Position numbers and translations under genes: made by a program. The notes below the pieces were generated by a model that searched no databases, was not told the origin of the DNA, and worked only from the letters and a program-made list of their open reading frames with translations. Shown in pieces: positions 1,882 through 26,438 of a stretch of DNA of 34,906 bases. The stretch spans positions 1 through 34,906 of the forward strand of contig VTPO01000012.1 of NCBI GenBank assembly GCA_008638205.1, read 5' to 3'. Numbering within the stretch: the first letter of the stretch is position 1; the number at the start of each line of letters is the position of its first letter. This DNA is from Pelagibacteraceae bacterium (GTDB lineage Bacteria > Pseudomonadota > Alphaproteobacteria > Pelagibacterales > Pelagibacteraceae).

Positions 1882-3048
1882 ATGAGTAGTTTAGCAAATA
1901 ATTATAATAGAAAAAAAATTGCTTTTTCAAAAGGAAAAGGGTCTTTTCTTTATTCAACTAATGGAAGTAAATATTTAGATTTTGTTCAAGGAATTGCGGT
2001 GAATTCTTTAGGACATGCTCACCCCAAGCTAGTAGCCGCTTTAAATAAGCAGTCTAAAAAAGTATGGCATGTGTCTAATGCATTTCAAATACCGGAGGGA
2101 GAAAAGTTAGCCAAAAAATTAACCCAACACACATTTGCTGATTATGTGTTGTTTCAAAATAGTGGAGCAGAAGCAACCGAGGCAGCAATAAAGGTTGCTA
2201 GAAGATACTTTTATTCTATTGGCCAGCCTAAAAAAAATAGAATTATTTGTATAAAAGATTCTTTTCATGGAAGAACTTTAGCAACTATTTTTGCCAGCGG
2301 TTCCAAAAAAATGACAGAAGGTTTTTATCCCAAAGTTCCAGGCTTTGATCACTTTAAATTTGGAGACCATACAAAATTAAAAAAATTAATAACTAAAAAA
2401 ACTGCTGCCATTATGGTGGAAACAGTAATGGGTGAAGGTGGAATCAAGGTGATACCAGACTGGTGTTTGAAGGGATTAAGAAAGCTTTGTAATGAAAAAA
2501 AGATTTTATTAATTCTAGACGAAGTTCAGTGTGGAATTGGAAGAACAGGAAAATTCTTTGCATTTGAACATGCCAAGGTCAAACCAGATATAGTTCCTAT
2601 AGCCAAAGGTATTGGAGGAGGATTTCCTATGGGTGCTGTATTAATGAATAAAAAAACAGCCTCGGGAATGATTGCGGGCACACATGGATCTACTTTTGGA
2701 GGAAACCCTTTGGCAATGTCAGTGGGAAGCGCGGTATTAGAAGTTATTTTGAAAAAAGGTTTTTTAAAAAATGTGACAAAAATATCTAGCTATTTTCACT
2801 TAAAATTAAACAAATTACAAAAACAGTATCCAAAAATTATTAAAGAGGTAAGGGGCGCTGGGCTACTCGTGGGCTTGCAACTTCATAAAGATCAGACTAC
2901 ATTTATAAAAAAATTAATGGATAATAAGCTCTTAACTATTAGAGCTGCCGAGAACGTAATAAGATTACTACCTCCTCTTACTGTTAAAAAAAATGAAATT
3001 GACTTAGCTATTAGTATTATCGCCAAGGTCTGTAAAAACTATAAATAA
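1882..3048 (+). CDS. argD: acetylornithine aminotransferase
   Basis: A 388-residue fold-type I PLP aminotransferase. It carries GIAVNSLGHAHP near the N terminus, the phosphate-binding QNSGAEATEAAIKVAR, DSFHGRT, the cofactor Asp in LILDEVQCGIGRTG, and the Schiff-base lysine K242 in PIAKGIGGGFPMGA. The closing THGSTFGGNPLA motif is also intact. It converts N-acetylglutamate semialdehyde to N2-acetylornithine in arginine synthesis. ArgD enzymes often also act as succinyldiaminopimelate aminotransferase in lysine synthesis, which is plausible here but not shown. argF follows after a single base, and the argD-argF pair after gcrA is a familiar alphaproteobacterial arrangement. Confidence 0.93.
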   Translation: MSSLANNYNRKKIAFSKGKGSFLYSTNGSKYLDFVQGIAVNSLGHAHPKLVAALNKQSKKVWHVSNAFQIPEGEKLAKKLTQHTFADYVLFQNSGAEATEAAIKVARRYFYSIGQPKKNRIICIKDSFHGRTLATIFASGSKKMTEGFYPKVPGFDHFKFGDHTKLKKLITKKTAAIMVETVMGEGGIKVIPDWCLKGLRKLCNEKKILLILDEVQCGIGRTGKFFAFEHAKVKPDIVPIAKGIGGGFPMGAVLMNKKTASGMIAGTHGSTFGGNPLAMSVGSAVLEVILKKGFLKNVTKISSYFHLKLNKLQKQYPKIIKEVRGAGLLVGLQLHKDQTTFIKKLMDNKLLTIRAAENVIRLLPPLTVKKNEIDLAISIIAKVCKNYK

Positions 3049-3049
3049 A

Positions 3050-3973
3050 ATGAACCACTTTTTAGATCTTGGCCAAATTGACAAAAAGGAACTGAGAAAT
3101 ATTGTCGAAGAAGCAAAAAGAAGAAAAAAGAAATATTCTATAAAGAAAAAAGTGTCCGTCACGGAAGCTAGTAACGCACAAGACAAACTGCTTTTAATGA
3201 TTTTTGAAAAGCCTTCGACTAGAACAAGATTATCTTTTGATCTTGCTATGAGACAGCTGGGTGGACAAACGATTGTTATGAATGCAAATGATATGCACCT
3301 AGGAAAAGGAGAGGAGAGCATTGAAGATACAGCAAAAGTTATTTCTTCGTTTTCCGATATTGTTATGTTTAGAACTTTTTCACATAAATCATTATTAGAA
3401 TTGTCTAACTTGTTAAATATTCCATTAATTAATGGATTAACAGACCATTCACATCCATGCCAACTATTAAGCGATGTGCTTACTTTTGAGGAAAATAAAG
3501 GTTCTATCAAAGGAGCTACAGTTGCCTGGATTGGAGATGGTAATAACGTAACCAACTCTGCAATTGAAGCTGCGGTTCAATTTGATTTTCAGTTAAATAT
3601 TTCATGTCCCAAAGGATATATGCCATCTAAAAAAACTTTAGATTGGGCAGATAAAAAAAATGGTAAAATTAATATTATTCAAGATCCTAAAAAAGCAGTA
3701 GCAGGAGTAGATGCTATTATGAGCGATAAGTGGATTTCAATGGGGGACAAGGTAAATGTAAAACAAAAAAAGAAAGCCCTAAAAGATTACCAAGTAAATA
3801 AAAAGATGATGAGCCTTGCTAGTAAAGATGCAATTTTTATGCATGTTCTACCGGCGGCAAGAGGGGAAGAGGTATCGGCAGAAATTATTGATGGAAAACA
3901 GTCTGTTGTGTGGCACCAAGCAGAGAATAGATTGCATGGCCAAAAAGCCATTATTGATTGGTGTTTAGACTAA
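3050..3973 (+). CDS. argF: ornithine carbamoyltransferase
   Basis: A 307-residue carbamoyltransferase, the usual length for anabolic OTC. The carbamoyl-phosphate loop S56-T57-R58-T59-R60 sits in FEKPSTRTRLSFD. DHSHPCQ and the ornithine-side SDKWISMGD (the SMG loop that separates OTC from aspartate carbamoyltransferase) are present. It makes citrulline from ornithine and carbamoyl phosphate. One oddity: the ornithine-site motif HCLP reads H265-V266-L267-P268, encoded CAT GTT CTA CCG, so the normally conserved cysteine is valine. The reading frame is otherwise clean. Its 3' end overlaps convergent trkH by 4 nt (3970-3973, CTAA, giving stops to both genes). Confidence 0.92.
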   Translation: MNHFLDLGQIDKKELRNIVEEAKRRKKKYSIKKKVSVTEASNAQDKLLLMIFEKPSTRTRLSFDLAMRQLGGQTIVMNANDMHLGKGEESIEDTAKVISSFSDIVMFRTFSHKSLLELSNLLNIPLINGLTDHSHPCQLLSDVLTFEENKGSIKGATVAWIGDGNNVTNSAIEAAVQFDFQLNISCPKGYMPSKKTLDWADKKNGKINIIQDPKKAVAGVDAIMSDKWISMGDKVNVKQKKKALKDYQVNKKMMSLASKDAIFMHVLPAARGEEVSAEIIDGKQSVVWHQAENRLHGQKAIIDWCLD

Positions 3974-5515: not shown

Positions 5516-7093
5516 ATGCATTCGCAAATGATTGATACTGAGTATTTAGATTCAAAAGCCTGGCCATTTGTTGAGGCTAGAGCACTTTTAAAAAAAAGAA
5601 AAAAACTTTTTGACAAAAAGGGTTATGCTTTATTTCAAACTGGATATGGCCCAAGCGGGTTACCACACATAGGTACATTTGGAGAGGTTTGTAGAACCAC
5701 AATGGTTATTCAAGCATTTCAAAAACTAACAGACATACCTGTAAAATTATTTACTTTTTCAGATGATATGGACGGTCTTCGAAAAGTCCCTGACAATATT
5801 TCAAATAAAGAAGTCTTAGAGCAAAACCTTAATAAGCCCCTAACAAGTGTTCCAGACCCCTTTGGAAAATATAATAGCTTTGGAGAGCATAATAACGAAA
5901 GGTTAAAAAGTTTTTTAGATCAGTTTGGTTTTCACTATGAATTTAAGAGCTCCACGGAATTATACCAATCTGGTATTTTTGATGACACCTTAAAACTTGT
6001 TCTGGATAAGTTTGATTCAATTATGAATATCGTTCTCCCAACTCTTGGAGAAGAAAGAAAAAAATCTTACAGCCCATTTCTTCCTATATGCCCTGAAACT
6101 GGAAAAGTATTGGAAGTAGCTATTTTAGAAAGAGATGTTGTGAATGGAGAAATTGTATACGAAAGTAACGGTAAAAAATTTAAAACAAAAGTAACAGGGG
6201 GCAATTGCAAGCTTCAATGGAAAGTAGACTGGGCTATGAGATGGCATGCCCTAGAAGTAGATTTTGAAATGTACGGAAAGGACTTAATTCCAAGTGCTGA
6301 ATTATCCCAACAAATATGCAAAACTCTTGGACACACTCCTCCCAATGGATTTTACTATGAATTGTTCTTAGATGAAAAAGGAGAAAAAATTTCCAAATCA
6401 AAAGGAAATGGAATTTCAATTGAAGATTGGTTGAGGTATGCAAATCCGGAAAGTTTAGCTTTGTATATGTTTCAAAACCCTCAAAGAGCTAAAAAATTAT
6501 ACCCGCAAGTCATACCGAAAGCTGTAGATGAATATTTGTCTTTTTTAGAAAAATTTGAAACACAACCAATCAAAGAACAGTTGGGAAATCCTGTCTGGCA
6601 TGTCCATAATGGAGTCCCACCAAAAGAAAAAAACATTATTAACTTTGGCGTTCTTTTAAATTTAGTTAGCGCAAGCAATGCGGATAATGAGGAAGTTTTA
6701 TGGAAGTTTATTCAAAATTTTGCACCTGATACAGACAGGTCTAAATACCCAATATTAAATCAGTTAGTAAAGAATGCCATTTCTTATTTCAATGATCATG
6801 TGAAGATTCACAAAAAATATCGCAATGCTAATGAGCAAGAAAAAAAGGCTCTACTAGAATTAAATGAAGAGATAAAAAAGATGCCAGAGGGAATGACGCC
6901 TGAAGAAATGCAGACAGTCGTGTTTACCGTAGGAAAAAAATACTATCCCAAAGAAGAATTGCGTAACTGGTTTAAGGCTATTTACGAAGTGGTATTTGGA
7001 GACGAACAAGGACCTAGAATGGGCTCTTTTATTTGTTTTTTTGGCAAACAAGAAACCATAGACTTGATTAATAAATCGTTAAGTAGAAACTAG
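5516..7093 (+). CDS. lysK: lysyl-tRNA synthetase, class I
   Basis: This 525-residue class I aminoacyl-tRNA synthetase has the HIGH-type motif P50-H-I-G53 in GYGPSGLPHIGTFGE and the KMSKS-type loop K291-ISKS-295 in EKISKSKGNGIS. DSKAWPFVEARALL near the N terminus is typical of the archaeal-type LysRS-I found in many alphaproteobacteria instead of class II LysS. It charges tRNA-Lys. The first ATG (5516) abuts AAGGA with no spacer. The second ATG, codon 5 at 5528, lies 12 nt from it, so the true start may be 5528. pyrD follows after 5 nt and is probably co-transcribed. Confidence 0.94.
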   Translation: MHSQMIDTEYLDSKAWPFVEARALLKKRKKLFDKKGYALFQTGYGPSGLPHIGTFGEVCRTTMVIQAFQKLTDIPVKLFTFSDDMDGLRKVPDNISNKEVLEQNLNKPLTSVPDPFGKYNSFGEHNNERLKSFLDQFGFHYEFKSSTELYQSGIFDDTLKLVLDKFDSIMNIVLPTLGEERKKSYSPFLPICPETGKVLEVAILERDVVNGEIVYESNGKKFKTKVTGGNCKLQWKVDWAMRWHALEVDFEMYGKDLIPSAELSQQICKTLGHTPPNGFYYELFLDEKGEKISKSKGNGISIEDWLRYANPESLALYMFQNPQRAKKLYPQVIPKAVDEYLSFLEKFETQPIKEQLGNPVWHVHNGVPPKEKNIINFGVLLNLVSASNADNEEVLWKFIQNFAPDTDRSKYPILNQLVKNAISYFNDHVKIHKKYRNANEQEKKALLELNEEIKKMPEGMTPEEMQTVVFTVGKKYYPKEELRNWFKAIYEVVFGDEQGPRMGSFICFFGKQETIDLINKSLSRN

Positions 7094-25181: not shown

Positions 25182-26438
25182 ATGGCAATAAAATTTAGTG
25201 AAATTTTTGGCATTAAAGGCCAGCAAGGCAAGACCACTCAAGACCTTCCAGCAATAGAAGGAATGGAGTTATCGACTGCTTCTGCGGGTCTCTATAAAAA
25301 ACAAAGAGATGATGTTTGTTTTTTTTATTTCAAAGAAGGAGCTAATTTTGCAGGCGTTTATACAAAATCTTCAACCAAATCTCACTGCATTGTATGGAAT
25401 CAAAGCATCACATCAAAAAAAATCAAAGCTCTTTTTGTAAATACAAAAAACGCAAACACTTTAAATGGACAGCAAGGTTACACGGCCATTAAAGAACTCG
25501 CTTATTTAATTTCCAGAAATAAGAATATTTCTCAAAAAGATATTTTATTTGCTTCAACGGGGGTAATTGGTGAAAAATTTCCTCTTCTTAAAATTAAATA
25601 TTCTATAGACAAGCTAATGGAAAGATCGGTAAAGCCTAATAAATTTGAATGGATTGGTGCAGCTAACGCAATAATGACAACAGATACAATTTCCAAGATG
25701 GCCTATGAATCTTTTGATATTAATAATAAAAAAATTAACATTTCAGGAATTGCAAAAGGATCTGGCATGGTTTTTCCTAATATGGGAACCATGTTTGGTT
25801 TTATATTTACAGATGCAAATATTTCCCCCTCTGTGTTAAATTATTTTTTAAAAAAGAATGTAGAAGAAACTTTTAATGCTATTTCAGTGGACGGCGATAC
25901 GTCAACCAATGATATGGTTTTGTTATTTTCCACCAATAAATCAAAAAATAAATTAATAACAAATAAAAACTCTCCAGCAGCAAAAATATTTGAGCAAAAA
26001 TTAAAAATAGTTATGTTGGATCTTGCAAAACAAATTGTTGCCGATGGTGAGGGAGCTCAAAAATTAATAACCATTAATATAACCAATTGTAAAAATAAAA
26101 ATTTAGCAAAAACTATTGGATTTTCAATCGCGAATTCCCCCCTGGTAAAAACAGCAATTGCAGCGGAAGATCCTAATTGGGGTAGAATAATGATGGCGAT
26201 CGGCAAGGTTAGTCCTGATATAAAAATAGAAAAAGTGTCATTGAAAATTGGGCCAACTTCAATTTTTAGAAATGGAGAGATTGTAAAAAATTATAAAGAG
26301 TCAGATGTAAAAGAGCACATGAAGAATAGAGAGATTTTAATCCATGTGGATATGAGATCGGGTAAAAATAATTTTTCAGTTTACACTTGTGATTTGACTA
26401 AAGAATATATTTCAATTAATGCAGACTACCGAAGTTAG
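25182..26438 (+). CDS. argJ: glutamate N-acetyltransferase / amino-acid acetyltransferase
   Basis: A 418-residue self-cleaving ArgJ. ANAIMTTDT and GIAKGSGMVFPNMGTMFGFI frame the processing site; the nucleophile Thr203 follows Gly202, where most family members have Ala. SVDGDTSTNDMV, ADGEGAQKL, AAEDPNWGR and the C-terminal YISINADYRS are intact. It transfers the acetyl group from acetylornithine to glutamate, recycling it in arginine synthesis, so with argD and argF here the organism likely uses the cyclic route. Whether it also uses acetyl-CoA cannot be told from sequence. It leads the + strand operon with mutT 2 nt downstream. Confidence 0.94.
   Translation: MAIKFSEIFGIKGQQGKTTQDLPAIEGMELSTASAGLYKKQRDDVCFFYFKEGANFAGVYTKSSTKSHCIVWNQSITSKKIKALFVNTKNANTLNGQQGYTAIKELAYLISRNKNISQKDILFASTGVIGEKFPLLKIKYSIDKLMERSVKPNKFEWIGAANAIMTTDTISKMAYESFDINNKKINISGIAKGSGMVFPNMGTMFGFIFTDANISPSVLNYFLKKNVEETFNAISVDGDTSTNDMVLLFSTNKSKNKLITNKNSPAAKIFEQKLKIVMLDLAKQIVADGEGAQKLITINITNCKNKNLAKTIGFSIANSPLVKTAIAAEDPNWGRIMMAIGKVSPDIKIEKVSLKIGPTSIFRNGEIVKNYKESDVKEHMKNREILIHVDMRSGKNNFSVYTCDLTKEYISINADYRS

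Follow-up and report, generated by a model that had tools for sequence, protein, structure and literature searches.

Whether an ornithine carbamoyltransferase (OTC) that lacks the cysteine of its HCLP motif is still an ornithine enzyme is the question raised by argF in a 34,906-nucleotide stretch of a Pelagibacteraceae genome (GCA_008638205.1; contig VTPO01000012.1, positions 1 to 34,906), hereafter the window. Codons 265-268 of this gene, CAT GTT CTA CCG, encode HVLP and are followed by AARGEEVS. The loci nearest to window argF that carry a name are from Pelagibacteraceae, a family that we take to be SAR11, and include HIMB114. An earlier note on this DNA had proposed that the valine either leaves ornithine binding intact or reflects a shift to acetyl- or succinyl-ornithine. 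Judged from sequence comparison, the gene very probably encodes a functional anabolic OTC in which a clade-wide replacement of the cysteine is tolerated. The features considered are collected in Table 1. Elsewhere in the window, the frame at 5516-7093 is presumably a class I (archaeal-type) lysyl-tRNA synthetase gene.

Table 1. Coordinates of argF, its motifs, and arginine pathway genes in the window
Feature	Position	Strand	Basis or remark
argF, anabolic ornithine carbamoyltransferase (OTC), 307 aa, ATG start	3050..3973	+	open frame, OTC models, fold
HVLP, residues 265-268, HCLP position of other OTCs	3842..3853	+	V266 corresponds to Cys273 in E. coli ArgI
Carbamoyl-phosphate motif STRTR, unaltered, residues 56-60	3215..3229	+	
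HPCQ carbamoyl-phosphate motif, residues 135-138, intact	3452..3463	+	inside DHSHPCQ
Ornithine loop DKWISMG, an unaltered DxxxSMG, residues 226-232	3725..3745	+	
argD, acetylornithine transaminase, immediately upstream of argF	1882..3048	+	
argJ, ornithine acetyltransferase, source of free ornithine	25182..26438	+	

Assignment of the Window argF Product

The argF product scored above the cut-offs of two OTC models (NF001986, 403.5 bits versus 306; TIGR00658, 346.7 versus 280.85) and below those of five narrower OTC models (NF011380, NF003286, NF002470, NF009213, and NF011379). Scores also fell below the cut-offs for N-acetylornithine carbamoyltransferase (NF003384, 137.5 versus 288 bits) and for the putrescine model (248.7 versus 500 bits). 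The characteristic OTC elements SxRT (as STRTR), HPxQ (as HPCQ), DxxxSMG (as DKWISMG), and HxLP are present, and only the cysteine of HCLP is replaced. This cysteine is treated here as a conserved rather than a defining feature of OTC because PMC7004355 describes it as not essential for catalysis.

Residue comparison with E. coli ArgI as reference revealed that the substrate residues Lys53, Ser55, Thr56, Arg57, Thr58, Arg106, His133, Gln136, Asn167, Asp231, Ser235, Met236, Leu274, and Arg319 are kept. Of the carbamoyl-phosphate and ornithine residues in Table 1 of PMC4581275, the exceptions are Cys273 and Gln82, the latter being His in the window protein; His also occupies this position in human OTC, as stated in that source.

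The nearest solved structure by sequence is the Brucella melitensis OTC (4oh7). HCLP was present in every solved chain compared: five aligned with the window protein, including two from P. furiosus, and five with E. coli ArgI, including two from E. coli. A structure model of the window OTC, built from a 14-sequence alignment (mean pLDDT 91.4), gave its best match with Arabidopsis OTC bound to ornithine (Z 42.9, rmsd 1.5 over 302 residues). The best 50 entries of the fold search were all OTCs or putrescine enzymes; the absence of N-acetylornithine enzymes among these 50 carries no evidential weight.

Distribution of the Cysteine Replacement

The same valine was found in four of the five other genomes of the genus (G001, G002, G004, and G005), in which ArgF is 86, 82, 86, and 98% identical to the window protein, respectively; in the fifth, which is 79% complete (G003), argF was not found. 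The alignment across sister genomes that the earlier note had called for thus yields valine throughout the genus wherever the motif was read. In total, the valine genera comprise the window genus (all five genomes with the motif read) and two further genera, one including HIMB114, and the valine codon varies within this clade (GTT, GTC, and GTA).

A survey of the order with a codon-blind pattern gave matches in 106 of 397 genomes. These comprise 107 rows, counted by eye, two of which are not OTC (G484 and contig C37 of G002). The 105 genomes with a true motif match carry cysteine (91), valine (10), or aspartate (4), with the valine rows lying in genera g1 (5), g8 (1), and g10 (4) and the aspartate rows all in g6. 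The 291 genomes that did not match belong mostly to genus g4. Three g4 genes (L032, L105, and L106) have HCLP directly before RG, a form missed by the pattern, and three other g4 genomes match it, with cysteine. Among named loci, 11 have valine, HIMB114 (L037) being one of them, and six of these duplicate genes from surveyed genomes.

Within the class, 79 of 289 alphaproteobacterial genomes matched the codon-blind pattern; read by eye, 78 have TGY, with this window the sole exception, the count of 78 in 79 referring to matching genomes and not to the other 210. Cysteine was present in all 29 of the class loci outside the window whose full sequence was read, which include L102 (HCLP) and L092 (HCMP). 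In a search of 58 class genomes, 14 gave no match, and the matches read were those with a locus. A similar pattern applied across the phylum matched 223 of 398 genomes, and the codon is TGY in the matches listed except in this window and in G1002. A pattern limited to codons not starting with T was matched by 2 of 398 genomes, namely this window and G1002, whose locus (L074) is a non-OTC frame; T-starting codons other than TGY were judged among the matches listed only. In other phyla, sampled through part of the nearest loci and the solved structures, all aligned loci have cysteine. Six duplicates were omitted from the residue alignment, as were L001-L003 and L062, and its table lacks L059 and L061.

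The earlier description of the valine as real and unusual is therefore upheld, by the codons themselves and by its recurrence in four other congeneric genomes and in two further genera, and the clade-wide valine is confirmed as a rare natural variant of a known enzyme. The titles and abstract starts listed from the open-licence literature yielded no cysteine-free SAR11 OTC. The same note had pointed to AARG in place of the usual AHRG beside the motif; the change is present but unremarkable, since the histidine position is occupied by Ser, Asn, Gly, Ala, Gln, Lys, or Arg across the SAR11 family rows and sometimes by Lys, Arg, or Tyr in other alphaproteobacteria.

Arginine Pathway Context

A gap of 1 base separates the end of argD from the start of argF, which suggests that the two genes are co-transcribed. 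In the 1.12-Mb genome, PF00185 was found in argF and in one weaker locus on contig C5, which is 28% identical to window ArgF and which we take to be pyrB; this PF00185 search did not find a second OTC gene. The argJ gene lies in the window, and contigs C9 and C10 carry argG and argH; all three genes score above cut-off. Among nine SAR11 genomes, matches over the cut-off were obtained for argJ in nine, argG in nine, and argH in eight (G022 being below). Because ArgJ releases free ornithine, ornithine is the expected substrate of the window OTC. The enzyme is likely to be active with it, since the pathway is retained and no other OTC was found.

Role of the Cysteine and Probable Tolerance of Its Replacement

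Published accounts of this residue differ. In PMC4581275, the HxLP side chains are described as making no direct contact with substrate, contact being made by main-chain oxygens. PMC7004355 reports that the E. coli C273A variant has kcat/KM values 3.2-fold lower with ornithine and 2.8-fold lower with carbamoyl phosphate, with a KM for ornithine of 0.73 versus 0.53 mM, and melts at 57 instead of 68 degrees; it also cites previous work in which, under other conditions, C273A caused a loss of ∼25-fold, and an earlier report of a thiolate salt bridge to ornithine. Given the ∼25-fold report, the salt bridge, and the lower melting temperature, loss of the cysteine is not neutral for the E. coli enzyme. 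Even so, with the mild effect of C273A and the lack of side-chain contact, a non-thiol residue would be expected to work, perhaps at a cost.

Window argF would thus be the single working anabolic OTC of a SAR11 bacterium of the HIMB114 clade, converting free ornithine to citrulline for arginine synthesis. Once the cysteine was lost, valine would have become established in three sampled genera and aspartate in a fourth. Such tolerance probably arises because the HxLP motif acts mainly through its backbone, that is, through the main-chain oxygens of position 266 and the next leucine, the unusual conformation of that leucine, and the cis-proline. The amino groups of ornithine would be held by Asp226, Ser230, Met231, Asn166, and the Leu267 carbonyl, all of which are kept.

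Several observations sit less easily with tolerance. The strong conservation of the cysteine elsewhere suggests a selective value that tolerance leaves without explanation. Valine is larger than alanine, and C273V is not among the variants in the available part of PMC7004355. The replacement in the sister genus, aspartate, is charged, and the window protein scores too low for the five narrower OTC models.

Alternative Explanations

It is improbable, although less so than the other alternatives, that the protein is still an ornithine enzyme in which loss of the thiol was itself adaptive, through less inhibition by zinc or oxidants or through a changed pH or ornithine optimum. The E. coli OTC is inhibited by zinc through the motif cysteine, which counts in favor of this explanation, as do the fixation of the replacement across the clade and the second replacement in the sister clade. 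Against it, other SAR11 lineages have altered other OTC motifs yet kept the cysteine, and OTC in SAR11 looks to be under general relaxation. There is a small chance that the thiol-free SAR11 OTCs descended from one loss differ measurably from the OTCs studied so far in their affinity for ornithine, in their sensitivity to zinc or oxidants, or in the range of second substrates.

Altered OTC motifs were observed in several of these lineages. In L031, L032, L105, L106, and L107, the cysteine is kept and other motifs are changed, with SLN, SMN, or GLN for SMG, and SLRTR; the glutamate of AENR is leucine in L032 and valine in L031, and a two-residue loss in L032 and L105-L107 gives HCLPRG. Outside SAR11, the alphaproteobacterial OTC L092 has HCMP and SMS for HCLP and SMG. 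In another alphaproteobacterial genome (G069:C1:509921-510833), the OTC gene lies in two overlapping frames, and a second OTC copy elsewhere in that genome covers nearly the whole query.

Use of N-acetyl- or N-succinylornithine, the second of the earlier proposals, is very unlikely. It has in its favor that the change sits in the motif called ornithine-binding and that some bacteria use such enzymes. However, PMC4581275 places cysteine at the same position in AOTCase (C294), SOTCase (C274), and the putrescine enzymes, so that its loss is no pointer to an acylated substrate. The same source has AOTCase and SOTCase holding the second substrate without DxxxSMG, through a lysine of the 240s loop, and bearing a proline-rich loop, whereas OTC uses DxxxSMG, which the window protein possesses as DKWISMG. 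The low score on the N-acetylornithine model and the presence of argJ, whose product would strip the acetyl group before the carbamoylation step, argue in the same direction. Of the two proposals, then, tolerated ornithine binding fits the data and the acylated substrates are unsupported.

Drift of the valine/aspartate clade toward a different amine, for example a diamino acid with a shorter chain, is equally hard to credit. HDLP, found in the sister genus g6, is typical of the 2,3-diaminopropionate (DPTCase) and 2,4-diaminobutyrate (DBTCase) enzymes according to PMC4581275 and PMC6022934. In PMC6022934, however, these enzymes have Thr or Ser for the DxxxSMG aspartate, and the valine and aspartate rows keep DKWxSMG. 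Moreover, G000, G010, G023, and G031 yielded a single OTC plus a second match of about 28% identity, and argJ, argG, and argH are kept in G000, G010, and G023.

Sequencing or assembly error and gene decay are negligible as explanations: the locus lies on a single contig of a 24-contig assembly, but the residue recurs in independent genomes of three genera with varied codons, dN is low against dS to the nearest genome (0.007 versus 0.151 against G005, a single pair), and, as the earlier note had observed, STRTR, DHSHPCQ, and SMG (within DKWISMG) are intact, so that both a pseudogene and an assembly error were rejected.

Evolutionary History of argF

In the argF tree, the valine sequences form one clade (100/99) and the aspartate sequences another (100/100), the two being united at 98/96, with all cysteine rows on the other side; the tree is drawn rooted at its midpoint, with two long outer rows. 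A single loss of the cysteine, in the ancestor shared by the valine and aspartate clades, is probable. Because GTN and GAY are one base apart, a single loss followed by divergence is the simplest history.

Among the rows compared, no covariation was seen that would indicate a compensating change at the position of E. coli Tyr229, next to the cysteine. This position is methionine in the window and in most SAR11 family rows, including many that bear cysteine, and mostly valine in other alphaproteobacteria. Within the family, the 18 valine/aspartate rows are distinguished from the 17 with cysteine by thirteen columns, the motif site included; these look like plain clade differences.

The adjacent argD (1882-3048; the same in G005 and G002) groups inside the argD genes of cysteine-bearing SAR11 (starred supports 100/98 and 100/99). 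It is ∼80% identical to several of these and only 65% identical to argD of G001 and G004 from the same genus. Unlike argD, argF follows its own clade. It looks as if argD was replaced by recombination from another SAR11 lineage, with a border near the argD/argF junction.

Comparison with Known Systems

Two related clades thus seem to make arginine with valine or aspartate at the cysteine position. They offer a natural experiment on a residue described in print both as forming a thiolate salt bridge to ornithine and as making no direct contact, and a natural hint that the cysteine is dispensable at the ornithine site. They also warn that the HCLP cysteine is unsuitable as a test of OTC function.

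With anabolic ArgF (NF001986/TIGR00658; 4oh7), the window protein shares length, fold, SxRTR, HPxQ, DxxxSMG, substrate residues, the argD neighbor, and the pathway; it differs by HVLP for HCLP and has methionine at the E. coli Tyr229 position. The E. coli C273A enzyme likewise has a non-thiol residue at the same position and retains activity (PMC7004355), but it is a laboratory alanine mutant, whereas the window carries a natural clade-wide valine. The N-acetyl- and N-succinylornithine carbamoyltransferases have the superfamily and the carbamoyl-phosphate motifs in common with the window protein, but keep the cysteine and use other residues for the second substrate (PMC4581275). DPTCase and DBTCase share HDLP with the sister SAR11 genus (L013, L014, L015, and L115) and not with the window, which has neither HDLP nor Thr or Ser for the aspartate. 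Since the sister genus combines HDLP with DKWISMG, keeping, as both SAR11 clades do, the aspartate that DPTCase and DBTCase replace, its enzyme too is read as a putative OTC.
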